Shown: positions 2,690 to 13,788 of the stretch, in pieces
Layout: each line of letters starts with the position of its first letter
How positions within the stretch are numbered: position 1 is the stretch's first letter
Assembly (NCBI GenBank): GCA_021604845.1
Contig: BQJT01000001.1
Coordinates: 1 to 64,000, forward strand
DNA: 64,000 nucleotides
Reading direction: 5' to 3'
Origin: Cyclobacteriaceae bacterium
GTDB lineage: Bacteria > Bacteroidota > Bacteroidia > Cytophagales > Cyclobacteriaceae
The notes under the pieces: generated by a model
The model's input: only the letters and a program-made list of their open reading frames with translations
Databases searched by the model: none
What the model was told of the DNA's origin: nothing
Translations under genes and position numbers: made by a program

Positions 2690-5128
2690 TTACTCCACGT
2701 AGTAGACACGCTTAACCCTTTCACTGATTTTAGTAAACAGTTCGTAGGGTATAGTACCGATGCGTTCTGACAAATGCTGAACAGAGTGCTCATCATTAAA
2801 GATAATCACCTGGTCACCTACCTTTGCTATGCAATCAGTGATATCAATCATGGTCATATCCATGCAAATATCTCCAACCACCGGAGCCAGTTTATCACCC
2901 ACCAGGACGGTTCCAGTGCCATTTCCAAACCTTCGATCGTATCCGTCGGCGTATCCAATAGCAATAGTGGCAATTTTACTGCTACGGTTTAACAAACCAC
3001 GGCGGTTATATCCAACAGTCTCTCCCCTGGGGACCGTTTTAATTTGACTTATAGTGGTTTTAAGTGAACTAATACCTCTTAATTGTTTTTCAGGACCAAT
3101 CCCGTATAACCCTATGCCTAACCTAACCATATCCAAATGAAATTCAGGAAAGTATAGGATACCGGCAGAATTCAGGATGTGCTTTAAAGGGGTTGAATCA
3201 AGTTTACCTTCAAGTTTTTCGGTAGCTGCCTTGAAAACTTCGAATTGCTGTTTTGAAAAGGATTTTTGGTTTGGATCATCAGCCGCAGCCAGGTGTGAAA
3301 ACACACTCACAACTTTAAGTGGTGATTGGGTTAAACTACTGGCGAGCGCATCAATATGACTCAGGTCAAAGCCCAGCCGATGCATCCCAGTGTCTATTTT
3401 AATATGAACATTATGAGCGATATTTTTTTCAATACAGAACTGCTTGAATTGGTCCAATAATTCCAAACTATAAATTTCAGGCTCCAATTGATAATCAACC
3501 AGTTGACTGAAATCATCCGGAGTTGGATTCATTACCATAATAGGAATGGTAATATCTCTTTTTCTCAGATCAACCCCTTCATCTGTATAGGCAACGCCCA
3601 GATAATCCACACCATGATATTGCAGTAGGTTCGCCACTTCATGACTACCGGTTCCATAGGCAAACGCCTTTACCATTACCATTAGTTTGGTTTTGGCGGG
3701 TAGCTTTTTTCTGAAAAAATTAAGATTATGTGCCAGGGCATCAAGGTTAATTTCCAGCACAGTACCGTGATGTTTTCTGAGCAGTTGTTGTACTATGTTT
3801 TCAAAAGTAAAAACTCGTGCACCCTTAATAAGTATGAGTTGGTTTTCAAAGGGATGGTGGTTCATCCACTCAAGGAAATCCTCAGTGGTACTAAAGAATT
3901 CTGAATCAGGGGGAAACAATTCCCGGTGTTTTTCGAGATTTTCGCCAATTCCAAAAAACCGGTTGATCCCATAAGATCTTATTCTTTCAGCTACGGATTG
4001 ATATAAGGAATGGGATGTACCGGAAGCCTGTTTAATGTCTGAAAGGATTAACACTTTTCCCTTTCCATGCGGCTGCTGGTTCAGGAAGTCCAGGGCTATT
4101 CCCAATCCGGCGTAATCATTGTTGTAGGTATCGTCTACCAGATAACAGTTGTTAACTCCCTGCTTCAATGCCAGCCGATGAGGAATATTTTGTAAAAAAC
4201 CTACTCTTCTTTGAATGTGATCTGTTGCATAACCCTGCGACAGCAGGAATGCCAGGCAATGAAGTGCATTTTCTACCGAAGCATTATCAACAAAAGGTAA
4301 AATTACCTGCCCAGGATCTGGGAATTCCCATCGAACAGTTGTCTCGGCATCTTTGGTAGTTAATATGAAGTTTAATTTGGCTCCACCCTTGGTTGACCAT
4401 CCGAAAAGCAAGTGATCCGGGAAAAGTTTGGAGATTTCTTCATGAACCAGTACATGATCCTTACGATAAATAATAGTACTTGATTCTCGGAATAATATAC
4501 ACTTTTCACGGATCTTCTCCCTGACATCCGCGAAACCGGCATCGTGGGCGGTTCCGATATTGGTGAATATCCCAATGGTAGGTCGGATAACTTCAGCCAA
4601 ATGCTCCATTTCGCCTTTTCTGGAAATTCCTGCTTCAAAAATACCAAGATCTGCTCCTGTATTTAGTTGCCAAACCGAAAGAGGCACACCAATTTGAGAG
4701 TTGTAACTTTTCGGGCTTTTAACCACGTGCTGATCATCCAATAATTGAAATAACCATTCCTTAATAATGGTTTTTGCATTGCTGCCTGTAATACCAATTA
4801 TTGGGATATCAAATTTTGACCGATGGAAGGCGGAAAGTGCCTGCAGCGCACGAATACTATTTTTTACAACTATTACATTAGCCTTCGAGAAGGCAGTTGG
4901 TAAACTGGAACCGGACCTTTCAACTACAAAATTGACCACATTTTGGGACAATACTTGCTCCAGGTATTGATGTCCATCGTGGTTCTCGCCATGAATAGCA
5001 AAAAAGATCGCTTCCGGGTGCACCACCAACTGCCGGCTGTCCGTCAGCAACCTGCTTACAGAATGATCCTGGGTCAAATGTAATATTTGACCATTCATGA
5101 TTTGTGGCAAATCGGAAATCTTCAACAT
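2690..5128 (-). CDS. murF-alr: bifunctional UDP-N-acetylmuramoyl-tripeptide--D-Ala-D-Ala ligase / alanine racemase
   Basis: An 812-residue fusion typical of Bacteroidota. Residues 1-445 are a Mur ligase: an N-terminal substrate domain (LLTDSRQLV), the central ATPase domain (P-loop region ITGSNAKTIIKEW, then ENALHCLAF and DDTYNNDY) and a C-terminal domain. Residues 450-812 are a PLP-dependent alanine racemase: MVKAFAYGTGS holds the PLP lysine, GMHRLGF and VRLGIGLYG are conserved, and VGYNRRG carries the active-site Tyr region. The protein would make L-Ala/D-Ala and add D-Ala-D-Ala to UDP-MurNAc-tripeptide in the cytoplasm. One oddity: the P-loop is GSN-Ala-KT where Mur ligases usually have Gly before the Lys. 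Confidence 0.95.
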   Translation of the reverse strand: MLKISDLPQIMNGQILHLTQDHSVSRLLTDSRQLVVHPEAIFFAIHGENHDGHQYLEQVLSQNVVNFVVERSGSSLPTAFSKANVIVVKNSIRALQALSAFHRSKFDIPIIGITGSNAKTIIKEWLFQLLDDQHVVKSPKSYNSQIGVPLSVWQLNTGADLGIFEAGISRKGEMEHLAEVIRPTIGIFTNIGTAHDAGFADVREKIREKCILFRESSTIIYRKDHVLVHEEISKLFPDHLLFGWSTKGGAKLNFILTTKDAETTVRWEFPDPGQVILPFVDNASVENALHCLAFLLSQGYATDHIQRRVGFLQNIPHRLALKQGVNNCYLVDDTYNNDYAGLGIALDFLNQQPHGKGKVLILSDIKQASGTSHSLYQSVAERIRSYGINRFFGIGENLEKHRELFPPDSEFFSTTEDFLEWMNHHPFENQLILIKGARVFTFENIVQQLLRKHHGTVLEINLDALAHNLNFFRKKLPAKTKLMVMVKAFAYGTGSHEVANLLQYHGVDYLGVAYTDEGVDLRKRDITIPIMVMNPTPDDFSQLVDYQLEPEIYSLELLDQFKQFCIEKNIAHNVHIKIDTGMHRLGFDLSHIDALASSLTQSPLKVVSVFSHLAAADDPNQKSFSKQQFEVFKAATEKLEGKLDSTPLKHILNSAGILYFPEFHLDMVRLGIGLYGIGPEKQLRGISSLKTTISQIKTVPRGETVGYNRRGLLNRSSKIATIAIGYADGYDRRFGNGTGTVLVGDKLAPVVGDICMDMTMIDITDCIAKVGDQVIIFNDEHSVQHLSERIGTIPYELFTKISERVKRVYYVE

Positions 5129-5227: not shown

Positions 5228-5611
5228 ATGAGACTTTCAAAAACTCTAAAATATTTAATAATTCTTTTTGTTGTTTTATTGACTGCTGTTCCATATCAGG
5301 TATCGGCGGATGCAAACCCAGAAAATACTGGTAAAACTGAGGCCAGGGAAGAAAATGAAGAGGAGCAGATGTACCAAAAGGACAGCGAAACAGAACAAAA
5401 AGATCAGGTAACTGACAACGGCAAGGTTAAGGATAAGGAAAGAGCCGACATTTCAAAAAGCTCATTTAACTACTTCTTCTATCTGATTTATAAGATAAAG
5501 TTTGAAGATGTTTTCAGGTTTCCACAGCGTGGTAATACGCAAAACTCCATCGGGATCAAGGTAATGGACATTAACTCGCTTTTGGATCATTTAGTAAGGC
5601 CCAAAATTTAG
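5228..5611 (+). CDS. small secreted hypothetical protein
   Basis: A 127-residue protein I do not recognise. It has a good signal peptide (basic MRLSKTLK, then a hydrophobic stretch to about residue 25, then VSADA), followed by a very charged Glu/Lys/Asp-rich region (residues 28-75) and a more ordered C-terminus with FNYFFYLIYKIKF. Its stop overlaps the 3' end of the convergent HisA-like gene by 4 nt. ATG at 5228 is the only start that gives the intact signal peptide. Confidence 0.6.
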   Translation: MRLSKTLKYLIILFVVLLTAVPYQVSADANPENTGKTEAREENEEEQMYQKDSETEQKDQVTDNGKVKDKERADISKSSFNYFFYLIYKIKFEDVFRFPQRGNTQNSIGIKVMDINSLLDHLVRPKI

Positions 5612-6336
5612 GCGTTTACCAAATACTTTTCCAGGTCTTTTAACGTAATCGCACCCTCATAAAACGCTTTACCGAAAACTACCCCCCAAACGCCCAGTTC
5701 CCTAAGTTTGTCAATGTCATCTGCGGAGCGCACACCTCCACTTGCCAATAAACAGATTCCGGGGAAGCGGTCCAGTATTTCCCGATATAACTCAAGAGAC
5801 GGTCCGCTCATAGTACCATGTTTTGGAATATCTGTAGTTTTCACATACTTAAGTCCACGGCTGAAAAAATGTTCAATATGCTCATACAAATCGATTTCAG
5901 TGTCCTTTTGCCATCCCCGGATGGCTACTTTACCATTAATTGAATCAGCGCCAAGGGTGATCTTCTCCCTGCCATATGACACAATCCAGGAAGCAAAGTA
6001 TTCAGGCCGGTAAGCCGCGATAGTAGCTGCAATAATATTGGAGGCCCCATACTCGTAAGCCTTAATTATATCACCATCATTGTATAAACCGCCGCTAAAA
6101 CTGACTTCCAGATCGGTGTGGCCGGTAATCGCTTCGAGTACTTCAAAATTAATGGATGCTCCGCGTCTGGCCCCCTCCAAATCCACCAGGTGTATTTTAG
6201 AAACTCCCACGTCTTCGAATTGTTTCGCTACTTCAAGCGGGCTTTGATCATAAACGGTTTCACGGTTGAAGTCTCCCTGCATGAGACGGGCACTCCTGCC
6301 CTTTATAACAGTAATTGAAGGAATTATTTGAATCAT
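5608..6336 (-). CDS. HisA-like TIM-barrel protein, active-site residues replaced
   Basis: A 242-residue (beta/alpha)8 barrel that aligns along its length with HisA, the phosphoribosylformimino-AICAR-phosphate isomerase of histidine synthesis. HisA-type landmarks are HLVDLEGARRG, a GADS...AIRGW segment, KYVKTTDI and LLASGGVRS. Several functional positions differ: the strand-1 Asp of the IPAxDL motif is Thr (IIPSITV); the RDGT motif is KHGT; VGGGxR is SFSGGLY. The second catalytic Asp position (GAD) is kept. No other his gene is in the window. It may be a paralogue with another substrate rather than a true HisA. It is transcribed alone, downstream of the regulator/kinase pair and separated from it by a hairpin. 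Confidence 0.75.
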   Translation of the reverse strand: MIQIIPSITVIKGRSARLMQGDFNRETVYDQSPLEVAKQFEDVGVSKIHLVDLEGARRGASINFEVLEAITGHTDLEVSFSGGLYNDGDIIKAYEYGASNIIAATIAAYRPEYFASWIVSYGREKITLGADSINGKVAIRGWQKDTEIDLYEHIEHFFSRGLKYVKTTDIPKHGTMSGPSLELYREILDRFPGICLLASGGVRSADDIDKLRELGVWGVVFGKAFYEGAITLKDLEKYLVNA

Positions 6337-6441: not shown

Positions 6442-7131
6442 CTAGGTTAAAGAAACAAGTTTGAATCCCTCTCCATGGATGGTTAGTATTTGTATATTCT
6501 GGTCTTTCTTCAGGTGTTTTCGAAGCTTGGCAATATACACATCCATGCTGCGGGCATTGAAATAGCTGTCATCTTTCCATATCATCTTTAAGGCAGCGGA
6601 ACGATCCAGCGTCTGGTTCATATTTTGACATAAAAGTCGAAGCAGTTCAGACTCCTTCGAGGTTAGTTTCTGTTTCTGCTTATCAAATTCAAGCAGCTGC
6701 TGATCATAATGAAAAATGAACTTTCCGAATTCATATGAAGTCTTCTTTTCGAGTTTCATTCCCCCGGAACGCCTTAGTACAGCGGTGATTCTTAACAACA
6801 GTTCTTCCATGCTAAAGGGTTTGGTCACATAATCATCCGCGCCAATTTTGAACCCCTCAATGGTATCTTCTTTCATGGACTTGGCAGTAAGGAATATTAT
6901 GGGAACCTGTCTGTCAAGTAATTTGATCTCCCTGGCAAGGGTAAAGCCATCCTTTTTTGGCATCATAATGTCAAGAATACAAAGATTGAAATCCTGTTTG
7001 TTGAATTCAGAAAGACCTTCTTCACCATCCCGGGCAAGATGAGTGGCAAAACCCTTTAACTCCAGGTACTCCTTAAGAATCTGCCCAAGGTTTTCGTCGT
7101 CCTCAACTATCAATAATTTGTCCCTATTCAT
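6442..7131 (-). CDS. OmpR/PhoB-family response regulator
   Basis: A 229-residue two-domain regulator. Residues 1-120 are a receiver: acidic pair E10-D11-D12, phospho-acceptor Asp54 in ILDIMMPKKDG, Thr82 in FLTAK and Lys104 in YVTKPF. Residues about 130-229 are a winged-helix trans_reg_C DNA-binding domain (LTSKESELLRLLCQN, then MDVYIAKLRKHLKKD and HGEGFKL). It binds DNA and regulates transcription when phosphorylated, presumably by the adjacent kinase, whose gene overlaps it by 4 nt (ATGA). The kinase-then-regulator order resembles the RprX/RprY pair of Bacteroides, but the target genes cannot be told from the sequence. Confidence 0.92.
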   Translation of the reverse strand: MNRDKLLIVEDDENLGQILKEYLELKGFATHLARDGEEGLSEFNKQDFNLCILDIMMPKKDGFTLAREIKLLDRQVPIIFLTAKSMKEDTIEGFKIGADDYVTKPFSMEELLLRITAVLRRSGGMKLEKKTSYEFGKFIFHYDQQLLEFDKQKQKLTSKESELLRLLCQNMNQTLDRSAALKMIWKDDSYFNARSMDVYIAKLRKHLKKDQNIQILTIHGEGFKLVSLT

Positions 7132-8720
7132 GAGTTTGTGCCAGGTAAAAATATTTCGAAAACACTACCTTTTCCAGTTGAACTTTTTACATCAATGTTG
7201 CCACCATGTGCTTCAACCAGAGTCTTAACATATGACAGTCCCAGTCCGAAGCCTTTAACATCGTGCAGATTACCAGTAGGTTTGCGATAGAATTTATCAA
7301 AAATTCTATTTATTACCTCCTTGGTCATGCCGATACCGTTGTCAATCACTCTAATCCAGATACCTTTACCGGGGTAGTCGTTGGTGGTAATACTGATTTG
7401 TGGCGGCCCGGTGGTATACTTATTCGCATTATCCAATAAATTATAAATTATGTTGGTCAAATGATGCTCGTCAGCAGGAATCAGTTGTTTGCTAGCCTGC
7501 AAGTCTGTAGTGATGCTTCCTCCTTTCTTTTCAACTTGTATGGCAATATTTTGCAATACCTTCTCGATAGTTTTATGCACATCGACATTTTCGATTTTTA
7601 GCTCAAAGTCTTCTTTTTCGATGCTGGCAATTTGAAGCACTTTTTCCACCTGCCGGCTTAGCCTCTGGTTTTCAGTATCAATTATCTTCAGATAACGTTC
7701 TCTTACTCCAGTATTTCGTACTACAGTTTGGTCCTGGAGAGCCTCAGTGGCCAAAGCGATGGTAGAAATGGGAGTCTTAAACTCATGGGTCATGTTATTT
7801 ATAAAGTCATTTTTTACCGTAGACAGTTTCTTTTGCCTGATAATAGTGAATATGGAATAAGCAAAGCAGAGTACAACGATCAGGATTAGTACTAGTGCCA
7901 GGACCAGCGGGAGCCAGGTTTTTCTGATAAGGTATTGCTGTTGTTGTGGAAAATGGACTATCAGGTAATTTATATTGCCAATAATGTCATTGGGAAACAA
8001 GGTAACCCTGAGATCAGATTTTATCAGTTCATAGGCGCTGCTATTTTCTCCGATATAGATTAATGAGTCCTGATCCTGATCCAGCACCCCATAGAAATAG
8101 TCTATTCCAATACCTTTGTTGGCGAGTTCCAGGGTCAGCAAAGAGTCCAGTTGCTCAGGTTGAAGACGGTTGGACAATTTTCTTTTGCCGGTCAGCAGCT
8201 CATCCAGGATTATAGTTACCATTTCAGATTTGTTTTCCAATCTTGACCGTTCTTTTATAGAATCTGCTTTTCGTTGGATTTGTAGGATTTCAAGTTCTAA
8301 ATCACCTTCTGATGATGGGCTGATGGACCTGGCCTTCAGTTGGTTTTCTTGTTCGAAATCCAGCCTGAACCCCTCCTGTTCAACACTTACCTCCAGTTGT
8401 GACTTTCCCCTGGTGGCCAGACTGTCCCTGTTTCGATAGTATGAATTTGCATTTCTATCAATGAGTTTCAGGGTATCAAAAGCCAATGAGTCCAGCTCGT
8501 TTAAATCAAACGAAGTCTCAAAGCTATTGCTAATGGTAAAAAGGGCTTCTTGCTGCTCTAGTTTTGCGGCCACATTGTTCAGAGCCTGGTGAACGTCCTG
8601 TTTGAAGCGTTCTTCGCTAATTTTGAGGGAGCTGTTAATCCAATACAGCTGAAAGCTAACCAGCCCTATCAAAGACAGTCCCATTAAAATGGAAATCAAG
8701 CGAATCGTTCTGCGTGTCAT
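7128..8720 (-). CDS. sensor histidine kinase, partner of the OmpR-type regulator
   Basis: About 530 residues from the ATG at 8720 (a GTG lies one codon earlier). Transmembrane helix 1 covers residues 7-28, then an extracytoplasmic sensor region of about 240 residues rich in Glu/Gln/Ser with likely coiled coil, then helix 2 near 265-288. The cytoplasmic kinase core has His312 in NNMTHEFKTP, the N box IIYNLLDNANKY, G1 DNGIGM, the F box IFDKFYR and G2 GFGLGLSYVK. It should autophosphorylate and pass phosphate to the regulator downstream. A perfect -7 element ends five bases before the ATG, so the mRNA may be leaderless. Confidence 0.92.
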   Translation of the reverse strand: MTRRTIRLISILMGLSLIGLVSFQLYWINSSLKISEERFKQDVHQALNNVAAKLEQQEALFTISNSFETSFDLNELDSLAFDTLKLIDRNANSYYRNRDSLATRGKSQLEVSVEQEGFRLDFEQENQLKARSISPSSEGDLELEILQIQRKADSIKERSRLENKSEMVTIILDELLTGKRKLSNRLQPEQLDSLLTLELANKGIGIDYFYGVLDQDQDSLIYIGENSSAYELIKSDLRVTLFPNDIIGNINYLIVHFPQQQQYLIRKTWLPLVLALVLILIVVLCFAYSIFTIIRQKKLSTVKNDFINNMTHEFKTPISTIALATEALQDQTVVRNTGVRERYLKIIDTENQRLSRQVEKVLQIASIEKEDFELKIENVDVHKTIEKVLQNIAIQVEKKGGSITTDLQASKQLIPADEHHLTNIIYNLLDNANKYTTGPPQISITTNDYPGKGIWIRVIDNGIGMTKEVINRIFDKFYRKPTGNLHDVKGFGLGLSYVKTLVEAHGGNIDVKSSTGKGSVFEIFLPGTNS

Positions 8721-8725
8721 CACTA

Positions 8726-12552: not shown

Positions 12553-13788
12553 ATGGAAATTGTAGACAGCAGGTACCGGATACAGGGATTAGATGTTGAG
12601 GATCTAACGCGTAAATACGGTACACCACTATATGTTTATGACGGGTCGGTTATCGCAAGACAAGTGCAGCTCATGCGTACGGCTTTTTCAGGATTAGATA
12701 TGCGCATAAAATACGCAGCCAAAGCGCTTACTAATATTTCCATATTAAAGCTAATGCGCTCGTTGGGGGTAGATCTGGATGTAGTGTCAAAACAAGAACT
12801 CCAATTGGCATTGGCTGCCGGGTACAAGACCAATGAGCTTCAGTTCACCCCTAACTGTGTTGATTTCGATGAGATTAAATGGGCGGCTGATCAGCATGTC
12901 CAGGTGACTATAGATAATATTCCCATGTTGGACAAATTTGGTGAAACCTATGGTAGCAGTAAGCCTTGCTGTATTCGATTCAATCCGCATATCATGGCTG
13001 GGGGTCACCTAAAGATTTCTACCGGCCATATCGACAGCAAATTTGGTATATCCGTGTTACAGTTATCGGAGATTATGGAGATCGTTAACCGGCACGGCAT
13101 GCGAATAAATGGGCTGCACATTCATACCGGATCTGATATTCTGGATACCGAAGTATTTTTAAAGGGTGCCAGTATCTTACTGGGGATTGCCGAGAACTTC
13201 CCGGAGTTGGACTATATTGACTTTGGCAGTGGGTTTAAAGTTTCCTATCAGGAAGGTGACCCCGCAACAGATATCGTAGACCTAGGAAAACAACTGGGGA
13301 CCGTTTTTAACGATTTCTGTGATACCTATGGCAGGCCGCTCCAATTATGGTTCGAGCCAGGGAAATTTTTAGTGAGCGAGGCAGGGACCTTATTGGTCAA
13401 CGCCAATGTGGTTAAAACTACACCAGCTACGGTATTCGTAGGAGTAGACTCTGGTATGAATCACTTATTAAGACCCATGATGTATGATTCACACCACGAA
13501 ATGGTTAACATTTCCAACCTGAACGGCCATACCAGGGTATACGCCGTGGTCGGCTACATATGTGAAACCGATACTCTTGGCTGGAACGTAACTCTGAATG
13601 AAGTTACTGCCGGGGACATTATTGCCATTAAAAATGCCGGAGCCTACGGATTTAGTATGGCTTCAAATTATAATAGCAGGTTGCGACCGGCTGAAGTGCT
13701 GGTTTTGGACGGCAACTCGCATCTGATTCGAAGGAGGGAAACACTGGATGATCTACTTGCTACGCAAGTAGATATCTCTGAACTCTGA
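12553..13788 (+). CDS. lysA: diaminopimelate decarboxylase
   Basis: A 411-residue fold-type III PLP enzyme that decarboxylates meso-diaminopimelate to L-lysine, the last step of lysine synthesis. The PLP lysine is Lys57 in RIKYAAKALTN; other landmarks are SKQEL, GLHIHTGSDI, DFGSGFKVSY (phosphate-binding Gly-rich loop), FEPGKFLVSEAG and the substrate-binding CETDTLGWN that carries the active-site Cys contributed across the dimer. Length fits the family. It is a single gene, convergent with the radical SAM gene, with its own promoter. Alternatives in the same fold (arginine or ornithine decarboxylase) are less likely given the motif set. Confidence 0.93.
   Translation: MEIVDSRYRIQGLDVEDLTRKYGTPLYVYDGSVIARQVQLMRTAFSGLDMRIKYAAKALTNISILKLMRSLGVDLDVVSKQELQLALAAGYKTNELQFTPNCVDFDEIKWAADQHVQVTIDNIPMLDKFGETYGSSKPCCIRFNPHIMAGGHLKISTGHIDSKFGISVLQLSEIMEIVNRHGMRINGLHIHTGSDILDTEVFLKGASILLGIAENFPELDYIDFGSGFKVSYQEGDPATDIVDLGKQLGTVFNDFCDTYGRPLQLWFEPGKFLVSEAGTLLVNANVVKTTPATVFVGVDSGMNHLLRPMMYDSHHEMVNISNLNGHTRVYAVVGYICETDTLGWNVTLNEVTAGDIIAIKNAGAYGFSMASNYNSRLRPAEVLVLDGNSHLIRRRETLDDLLATQVDISEL

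Follow-up and report, generated by a model that had tools for sequence, protein, structure and literature searches.

The window analysed here, a stretch of 64,000 nucleotides of Cyclobacteriaceae DNA, encodes a HisA-like protein of 242 aa (5608..6336 on the complementary strand; an ORF with an ATG start at 6336), for which the label HisA2 is introduced in this report. Sequence comparisons revealed that HisA2 is an ancient paralogue of HisA spread over many families of the order Cytophagales, and that it forms a single clade with a residue pattern of its own: the aspartate of strand 1 is lost, the aspartate of strand 5 (Asp131) is kept, and a lysine (Lys166) is gained in strand 6. We infer from these comparisons both a catalytic role and a ligand class, in that HisA2 is probably (at a rough probability of 0.6) an enzyme with a changed reaction, in which Lys166 and Asp131 would work as a pair on a smaller ligand of the phosphoribosyl type. 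A changed reaction is favoured over a regulatory role. No description of this paralogue with a rebuilt active site was found among the papers listed from the open literature, general HisA papers being retrieved, and it is not mentioned in the available part of the study on HisA/PriA sequence clusters (PMC5445326).

Identification of HisA2 and Its Relation to HisA

The family PF00977 (His_biosynth) spans the HisA2 of the window from end to end, with a score of 198.2 bits (gathering cut-off, 23.6). With the HisA equivalog model TIGR00007, 202.7 bits were obtained for the window protein and 199.7–212.7 bits for three other HisA2 members, all below the cut-off of 228.95. The HisA2 of the window has no match to the TrpF family PF00697 at E ≤ 0.1, and it stays below the cut-offs of the models for bifunctional HisA-TrpF (TIGR01919; 137.9 bits, cut-off 306.45), HisF (53 bits, cut-off 294.55), WbuZ (50.9 bits, cut-off 299.7), and AglZ-HisF2 (57.8 bits, cut-off 310). 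The structure predicted for the protein is a barrel (pLDDT 91.4, pTM 0.89) that best matches the folds of Salmonella HisA and mycobacterial PriA; the TM-scores on the query were 0.92–0.93 for two mutants of Salmonella HisA, 5abt and the ProFAR-containing 5a5w. The top phmmer match in the PDB was 5g2h, the L169R mutant of Salmonella HisA. An origin of HisA2 from another family was rejected, since HisA and PriA are the nearest proteins by both sequence and fold.

The genome to which the window belongs (5.2 Mb in 462 contigs) contains four matches to PF00977, namely, hisA and hisF on contig C38, the gene of the window, and a weak partial match on contig C149. On C38, hisIE, hisF, and hisA are found in a row, with their families confirmed by profile; the adjoining ORF resembles hisH in size and place, but no family reached the threshold for it. 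C38 also encodes HisD and HisB. The C38 HisA scores 263.5 bits with TIGR00007 (cut-off 228.95), carries the motifs IPAID, GGG, and KDGM, and is 41% identical to the HisA2 of the window. The initial annotation had suggested a paralogue whose reaction is changed or whose role is regulatory. This suggestion is borne out by the normal hisA beside hisF and hisIE, which means that the gene of the window is not the only HisA in its genome, as well as by the separate clade and by the retention of HisA2 in genomes without his genes. The weak partial match on C149 (L004; G000:C149:9955-10170) scores 32.5 bits and has one internal stop.

Comparison of the hisA2 of the window with those of two members of its genus gave a dN of 0.09 and a dS of 3.2 or not computable, which demonstrates, at the level of coding sequence, purifying selection on hisA2. 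Among the HisA2 matches of the 59-genome search described below, one genome only (G007) had a stop, in the final codon matched. Chance or decay of hisA2 was rejected because stops are nearly absent and dN is low relative to dS. The dN of true HisA is larger within the genus (0.24), which is not general across the family; the mean pairwise identity was 0.557 for HisA2 and 0.564 for HisA (378 pairs from 28 genomes of the family), and no clear difference in the speed of evolution is apparent between the two proteins. The intergenic part of the hisA2 leader shows little conservation in a comparison of five close relatives, and a simple scan of the leader gave three promoter-like sites, against 2.6 expected, and no site resembling a terminator.

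Active Site Residues of HisA2

Positions of the window protein were related to Salmonella HisA numbering by alignment (9 = 7, 81 = 79, 85 = 83, 104 = 102, 105 = 103, 131 = 129, 142 = 145, 166 = 169, and 173 = 176). For residue counts, 148 HisA2 rows, defined as the rows with Lys166 and including loci from the best 80 of 251 relatives, were compared with 76 HisA rows. Asp7 of strand 1, which we take to be the general base of HisA, aligns with Thr9 of the window protein (codon 6310..6312; this and all codons below are on the complementary strand). Consistent with such a role, D7N HisA was used for crystals with ProFAR, according to the titles of the PDB entries. Aspartate is found at position 9 in 76 out of 76 HisA rows and in none of the 147 HisA2 rows readable there, one of the 148 being truncated. 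The residues of HisA2 at this position are varied (51 Ala, 48 Ser, 18 Thr, 13 Trp, 6 Tyr, and others), thus the aspartate was lost, not swapped for one new acid. The aspartate of strand 5, Asp131 (5944..5946), equivalent to Asp129, is present in 147 of the 148 HisA2 rows and in all 76 HisA rows. Lys166 (5839..5841) aligns with Leu169 of strand 6, and had not been pointed out in the initial annotation.

The loss of Asp9 and the gain of Lys166 are linked. As one of the two peptide patterns used in the search that gave the best 80 relatives ends in Lys166 (71 of the 80 loci match this pattern, and nine match the other pattern only), the linkage is stated without those loci. The 164 distinct rows that remain comprise 84 rows with Lys166 and no Asp9, 76 HisA, and four HisF; all of the HisA and HisF rows have Asp9 and lack Lys166, and none of the 164 rows is mixed. 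In these unbiased searches, Lys166 is found in 84/84 HisA2 and 0/76 HisA rows. With the 80 loci added, 148 rows carry Lys166, of which 147 are without Asp9 and one is truncated at position 9. Since the HisA2 rows were chosen by Lys166, a frequency of 148/148 for this residue would be circular, and the finding is that no mixed row exists in the set.

According to the available part of one study (PMC7591586), residues 80, 81, 83, and 102 of Salmonella HisA contact the second phosphate of ProFAR; the available text of another (PMC9088769) describes D176 as the catalytic aspartate, W145 as stacking on ProFAR, and R83 and S103 as gripping phosphate 2. On the phosphate-2 side of HisA2, Ser81 (6094..6096) aligns with Gly79, the first glycine of GGG; glycine occupies this position in 75 of the 76 HisA rows and in 17 HisA2 rows, the others having 77 Thr, 39 Ser, and 15 Ala (n = 148). 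Tyr85 (6082..6084) aligns with the phosphate gripper Arg83. HisA rows have 38 Lys, 32 Gln, and 6 Arg at this position (n = 76), and HisA2 rows have 42 Ser, 41 His, 16 Asn, 14 Thr, and others, including 7 Arg, 5 Gln, and no Lys (n = 148). Position 104, equivalent to Gly102, is still glycine in 18 of the 148 HisA2 rows, and position 105, equivalent to Ser103, is Ser or Thr in 143. Based on the glycines kept in 17 and 18 rows and the Ser/Thr kept in 143, the second phosphate site is weakened, not destroyed. Gly200 and Gly201 are each present in 148/148 HisA2 rows and Lys or Arg223 in 142/148, so that, together with the retained Asp131, the phosphate site of strands 7 and 8 looks intact. The equivalent of Trp145 (position 142) is kept in 139/148 rows. 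Ser7 (139/148) is a further mark of HisA2, and three HisA2-specific conserved residues are found outside the strand ends, namely, Arg123 (142/148), Lys92 (104/113), and His153 (103/113).

His173 (5818..5820) aligns with Asp176, the aspartate of RDGT. This position is Asp in all 76 HisA rows, and in the 148 HisA2 rows it is 116 Asp, 15 Glu, 8 His, 5 Asn, 2 Tyr, 1 Val, and 1 Ser. The eight His173 rows come from the genus of the window (five), two near relatives (L118 and L159), and L249; across the aligned rows, KHGT is no trait of the HisA2 family. For the window protein itself, the alignment with Salmonella HisA agrees with what the initial annotation had read from the sequence: Thr in place of the strand-1 Asp (IPSIT versus IPAID), a changed Asp in RDGT (KHGT), one altered Gly-rich phosphate loop (SGG versus GGG), and a second Asp and overall fold that are kept, as is also seen from Asp131, the predicted barrel, and the full-length match to PF00977.

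Distribution and Phylogeny

The 59-genome sample consisted of the genome of the window and 58 relatives, and the matches were read individually. HisA2 was found in 42 genomes, i.e., in 33 out of 37 from its own family and in 9 out of 22 from other families of the order, and true HisA in 49; both proteins are encoded by 36 genomes, HisA2 alone by 6, HisA alone by 13, and neither by 4. In a tree of 111 rows (45 HisA2, 63 HisA, and three HisF as the outgroup), which was a quick one, made without bootstrap, and leaves the order of the HisA branches open, all 45 HisA2 rows form one clade separate from HisA and HisF (SH-aLRT 100). A single clade is in keeping with a history of one duplication, later inheritance, and losses.

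In a scan of species genomes, 251 relatives had a match and the best 80 were kept. Named genera among these best 80 of 251 are Fulvivirga, Roseivirga, Marivirga, Reichenbachiella, Chryseolinea, Ohtaekwangia, and Cesiribacter, and the taxonomy of three carriers (Fulvivirga, Chryseolinea serpens, and Reichenbachiella agariperforans) places all of them in the order Cytophagales. Many of the best 80 are metagenome bins, and the record labels include one Rickettsiales and one Bacteroides. A strict search of the order gave matches in 85 of 291 genomes (E ≤ 1e-97). This is no clean count of HisA2, since the 40 matches read consisted of 36 HisA2 and four true HisA (L247, L250, L262, and L267), and since divergent HisA2 were missed in four genomes (G043, G045, G050, and G058). 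The 30 loci read from a phylum sample of 296 genomes included eight HisA2, all from the family to which the window belongs and the window among them, and 22 true HisA.

Proposed Function of HisA2

A single ancient duplication of HisA is proposed to have given rise to HisA2, which would now catalyse another reaction, one that is not part of histidine synthesis. As the barrel and the phosphate site of strands 7 and 8 are kept, HisA2 probably still holds a sugar 5'-phosphate. The strand-1 aspartate, needed for the isomerisation of ProFAR, has been lost and the grip on the second phosphate of ProFAR has been loosened, so that the ligand of HisA2 is probably smaller than ProFAR. Lys166 of strand 6, facing Asp131 of strand 5, would take over as the working residue. 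We infer that the side chain of Lys166 points into the pocket next to Asp131, the geometry being carried over from the 169/129 pair of Salmonella HisA; in simulations of the latter, R169 contacts D129 and the carboxylate of the substrate, according to the available part of the report (PMC9088769). Lys166 may anchor a carboxylate or another anion, as Arg169 does in L169R HisA, or it may serve as the nucleophile or base of a new reaction. Several observations speak against such an enzyme: the equivalents of Asp176 (116/148) and Trp145 (139/148) are kept in most HisA2, which could suit a ProFAR-like ligand, position 9 shows no one consistent new catalytic residue, the second phosphate site is not destroyed, and hisA2 lies in no conserved metabolic operon.

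A more specific version of the proposal, which is put forward tentatively, is that the HisA barrel has taken up new chemistry throughout the order, independently of his and trp, with acid-base catalysis by the strand-1 aspartate replaced by the strand-6 lysine and the strand-5 aspartate. A pair of this kind might, for example, act through an imine, in the manner of the Schiff-base lysine of class I aldolases, or through a carbanion on a phosphoribosyl or phosphoribulosyl ligand.

Genomic Neighbourhood

The nearest upstream gene, co-directional with hisA2, encodes an RprY-like response regulator (6442..7131, complementary strand; NF051850, 342.9 bits, below the cut-off of 370), and a sensor histidine kinase lies beside it (7128..8723, complementary strand; best match PnpS, 198.2 bits, below the cut-off of 400). 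A small forward-strand ORF of 127 aa (5228-5611), with a hydrophobic start and a charged middle, is convergent with hisA2 and overlaps its stop by 4 bases; it has no Pfam family over the cut-off, and a homologue next to hisA2 was seen in 6 of 108 loci, those of the genus of the window and of two near relatives. Further along are a fused murF-alr gene for MurF ligase and alanine racemase (2690-5128, complementary strand; NCBIfam, 1070 versus 804 bits) and, on the forward strand, lysA for diaminopimelate decarboxylase (12553-13788; 376.8 versus 297.9 bits). No histidine gene adjoins hisA2, as had been noted from the sequence; its neighbours are murF-alr, the small ORF, the response regulator, and the histidine kinase. 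In 160 neighbourhoods, which have unequal flanks, in some cases end at contig ends, repeat genomes, and include four true-HisA loci, homologues of the histidine kinase were found in 63, of the response regulator in 62, of lysA in 53, and of murF-alr in 63. As lysA adjoins hisA2 on the opposite strand in loci from other families of the order (L230, L246, L249, L253, and L259), the lysA/hisA2 neighbourhood may be ancestral.

The two-component genes bear on the main rival, itself unlikely, according to which HisA2 is a non-catalytic pseudoenzyme, a sensor of a phosphoribosyl ligand or a partner protein signalling to the RprXY-like two-component system next to it. Besides the flank counts given above, it is in line with such a role that in 43 of 104 HisA2 loci the first co-directional gene upstream encodes the response regulator, that the order kinase–regulator–HisA2 recurs in another family of the order, f8 (G043, L234), that the strand-1 aspartate is replaced by variable residues, and that the conserved Arg123, Lys92, and His153 outside the strand ends could be an interface. 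However, about 60% of the 160 loci are without the kinase and regulator in the stretch read (flanks differ), the shared gene order may simply be old, and a conserved lysine in the barrel beside a conserved aspartate would be unusual once chemistry had been given up.

In the same f8 locus, HisA2 is directly upstream of purK-purE. A PurM-like gene is found directly downstream of HisA2 in five loci (L171, L186, and L191–L193), and purE and/or purK are located about 2–5 kb away in L152, L156, and L270. Such neighbours would fit an enzyme acting on a phosphoribosyl-aminoimidazole near purine synthesis, at the level of AIR, NCAIR, or CAIR, as would the Trp145 equivalent kept in 139/148 rows, a residue that stacks on ProFAR in HisA according to the available text of PMC9088769. 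This alternative is nevertheless doubtful to the point of being quite improbable: it concerns 9 of the 160 loci only, the five PurM loci are close relatives, and the association was noticed post hoc. Since L152 and L270 have purE and purK on the opposite strand, their proximity may be inherited synteny, and the neighbouring aroE, lysA, murF-alr, and alanyl-tRNA synthetase genes point elsewhere. No conserved metabolic operon was found around HisA2; the Pfam/NCBIfam functions of its other neighbours (aroE, alanyl-tRNA synthetase, and more) are mixed, and the neighbouring genes do not settle its substrate or reaction.

Relation to Histidine and Tryptophan Synthesis

Among the 59 genomes, HisF over the cut-off was detected in 49/49 with true HisA and in 0/10 without it. 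Six genomes (G003, G004, G026, G041, G043, and G045) encode HisA2 with neither true HisA nor HisF over the cut-off. HisD was absent from five out of the five of these that were tested, a set that leaves out G043, and HisB was absent from five out of six, with a match in G041. Of these genomes, G003 and G004 are bins and fragmented, but G045 consists of one 3.3-Mb contig (98% completeness) and G043 has a size of 1.6 Mb (93% completeness). The case of G041 is ambiguous, this genome combining an IGPD match and WbuX, HisH-type, and WbuZ-type genes with a HisF match below the cut-off and the absence of HisD. By these profile searches, HisA2 is retained in genomes without his genes. TrpF (PF00697) accompanies HisA2 in 38 of its 42 genomes, including that of the window; eight of the 59 genomes had no detectable TrpF, and the four of them that carry HisA2 (G004, G026, G043, and G045) are without HisF as well. 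Based on the presence of TrpF, HisF, HisD, and HisB, HisA2 is neither a general stand-in for a missing TrpF nor dependent on his genes, and its function lies outside histidine synthesis and, most likely, outside tryptophan synthesis. In G041, WbuX, HisH, and a WbuZ/HisF2-like gene (below the cut-off) are found in a row (L243), and may form a cassette for sugar amidation; no HisF of this genome exceeds the cut-off.

It is very improbable that HisA2 is a TrpF-like isomerase of phosphoribosylanthranilate. According to the available part of PMC7591586, the change L169R in Salmonella HisA abolishes HisA activity and confers TrpF activity; the same is true of D176A/V and of some substitutions at 79 and 129. 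HisA2 has in common with L169R (5g2h) and the other HisA-to-TrpF variants a basic residue at 169 and changes at 79, 83, and 102 and, in the genus of the window, at 176, all of which are positions where, in that source, a change confers TrpF activity or is recurrent while this activity improves. However, HisA2 lacks the catalytic residue of strand 1, most members retain Asp129 and Trp145, the loss of which likewise confers TrpF activity, and a separate TrpF is encoded by the genome of the window and altogether by 38 of the 42 HisA2 genomes, the other four being without HisF too. HisA2 as a replacement TrpF was rejected as the main reading on account of the 38 genomes. That HisA2 is an active isozyme of HisA can be dismissed as extremely improbable: the match to PF00977 and a large part of the ProFAR pocket (Asp129, Trp145, and Gly80/81) are kept, but Asp7 is lost in 147/147 readable rows, the window protein and three members fall below the TIGR00007 cut-off that true HisA passes, a normal HisA is present in the same genome, and HisA2 is kept where HisF and, as tested, HisD/HisB were not found.

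Comparison with Known Systems

HisA is a model system for the evolution of new enzymes after gene duplication. HisA2 resembles HisA in fold, length, the phosphate site of strands 7 and 8, Asp129, and Trp145, and differs from it in the missing Asp7, Lys at 169, the altered phosphate-2 site, and the lack of an adjacent his gene. The laboratory mutant 5g2h keeps Asp7, whereas HisA2 is without it; L169R gives TrpF activity (available part of PMC7591586), whereas HisA2 mostly coexists with TrpF. Two PriA paralogues of Actinomycetota, as far as described in the available text of PMC13055916, are also duplicated HisA-type isomerases: SubTrpF2 has altered ProFAR-binding residues, as does HisA2, and AdeK was recruited to another pathway. 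In that text, Asp11 and Asp175, both catalytic, are described as conserved, whereas HisA2 has lost the first aspartate in all readable members and has Lys at 169. WbuZ and AglZ-HisF2 are likewise barrels of the histidine pathway recruited elsewhere but, unlike HisA2, are derived from HisF.

A basic residue thus seems to have been fixed across the order at position 169, the same position that laboratory evolution changes on the way from HisA to TrpF, and HisA2 has discarded the strand-1 aspartate as well. If its substrate is found, HisA2 would provide a natural end point for a trajectory of the HisA-to-TrpF kind, and a conserved enzyme of Cytophagales would receive a name. Labelling HisA2 genes as HisA by similarity would be misleading. 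In eight HisA2 loci (L065, L066, L245, L248, L254, L258, L261, and L269), Trp142 is replaced by Arg with Lys166 kept, and in L251 the residue is Glu; W145R is another change that gives TrpF activity in Salmonella HisA, according to the available part of PMC7591586.
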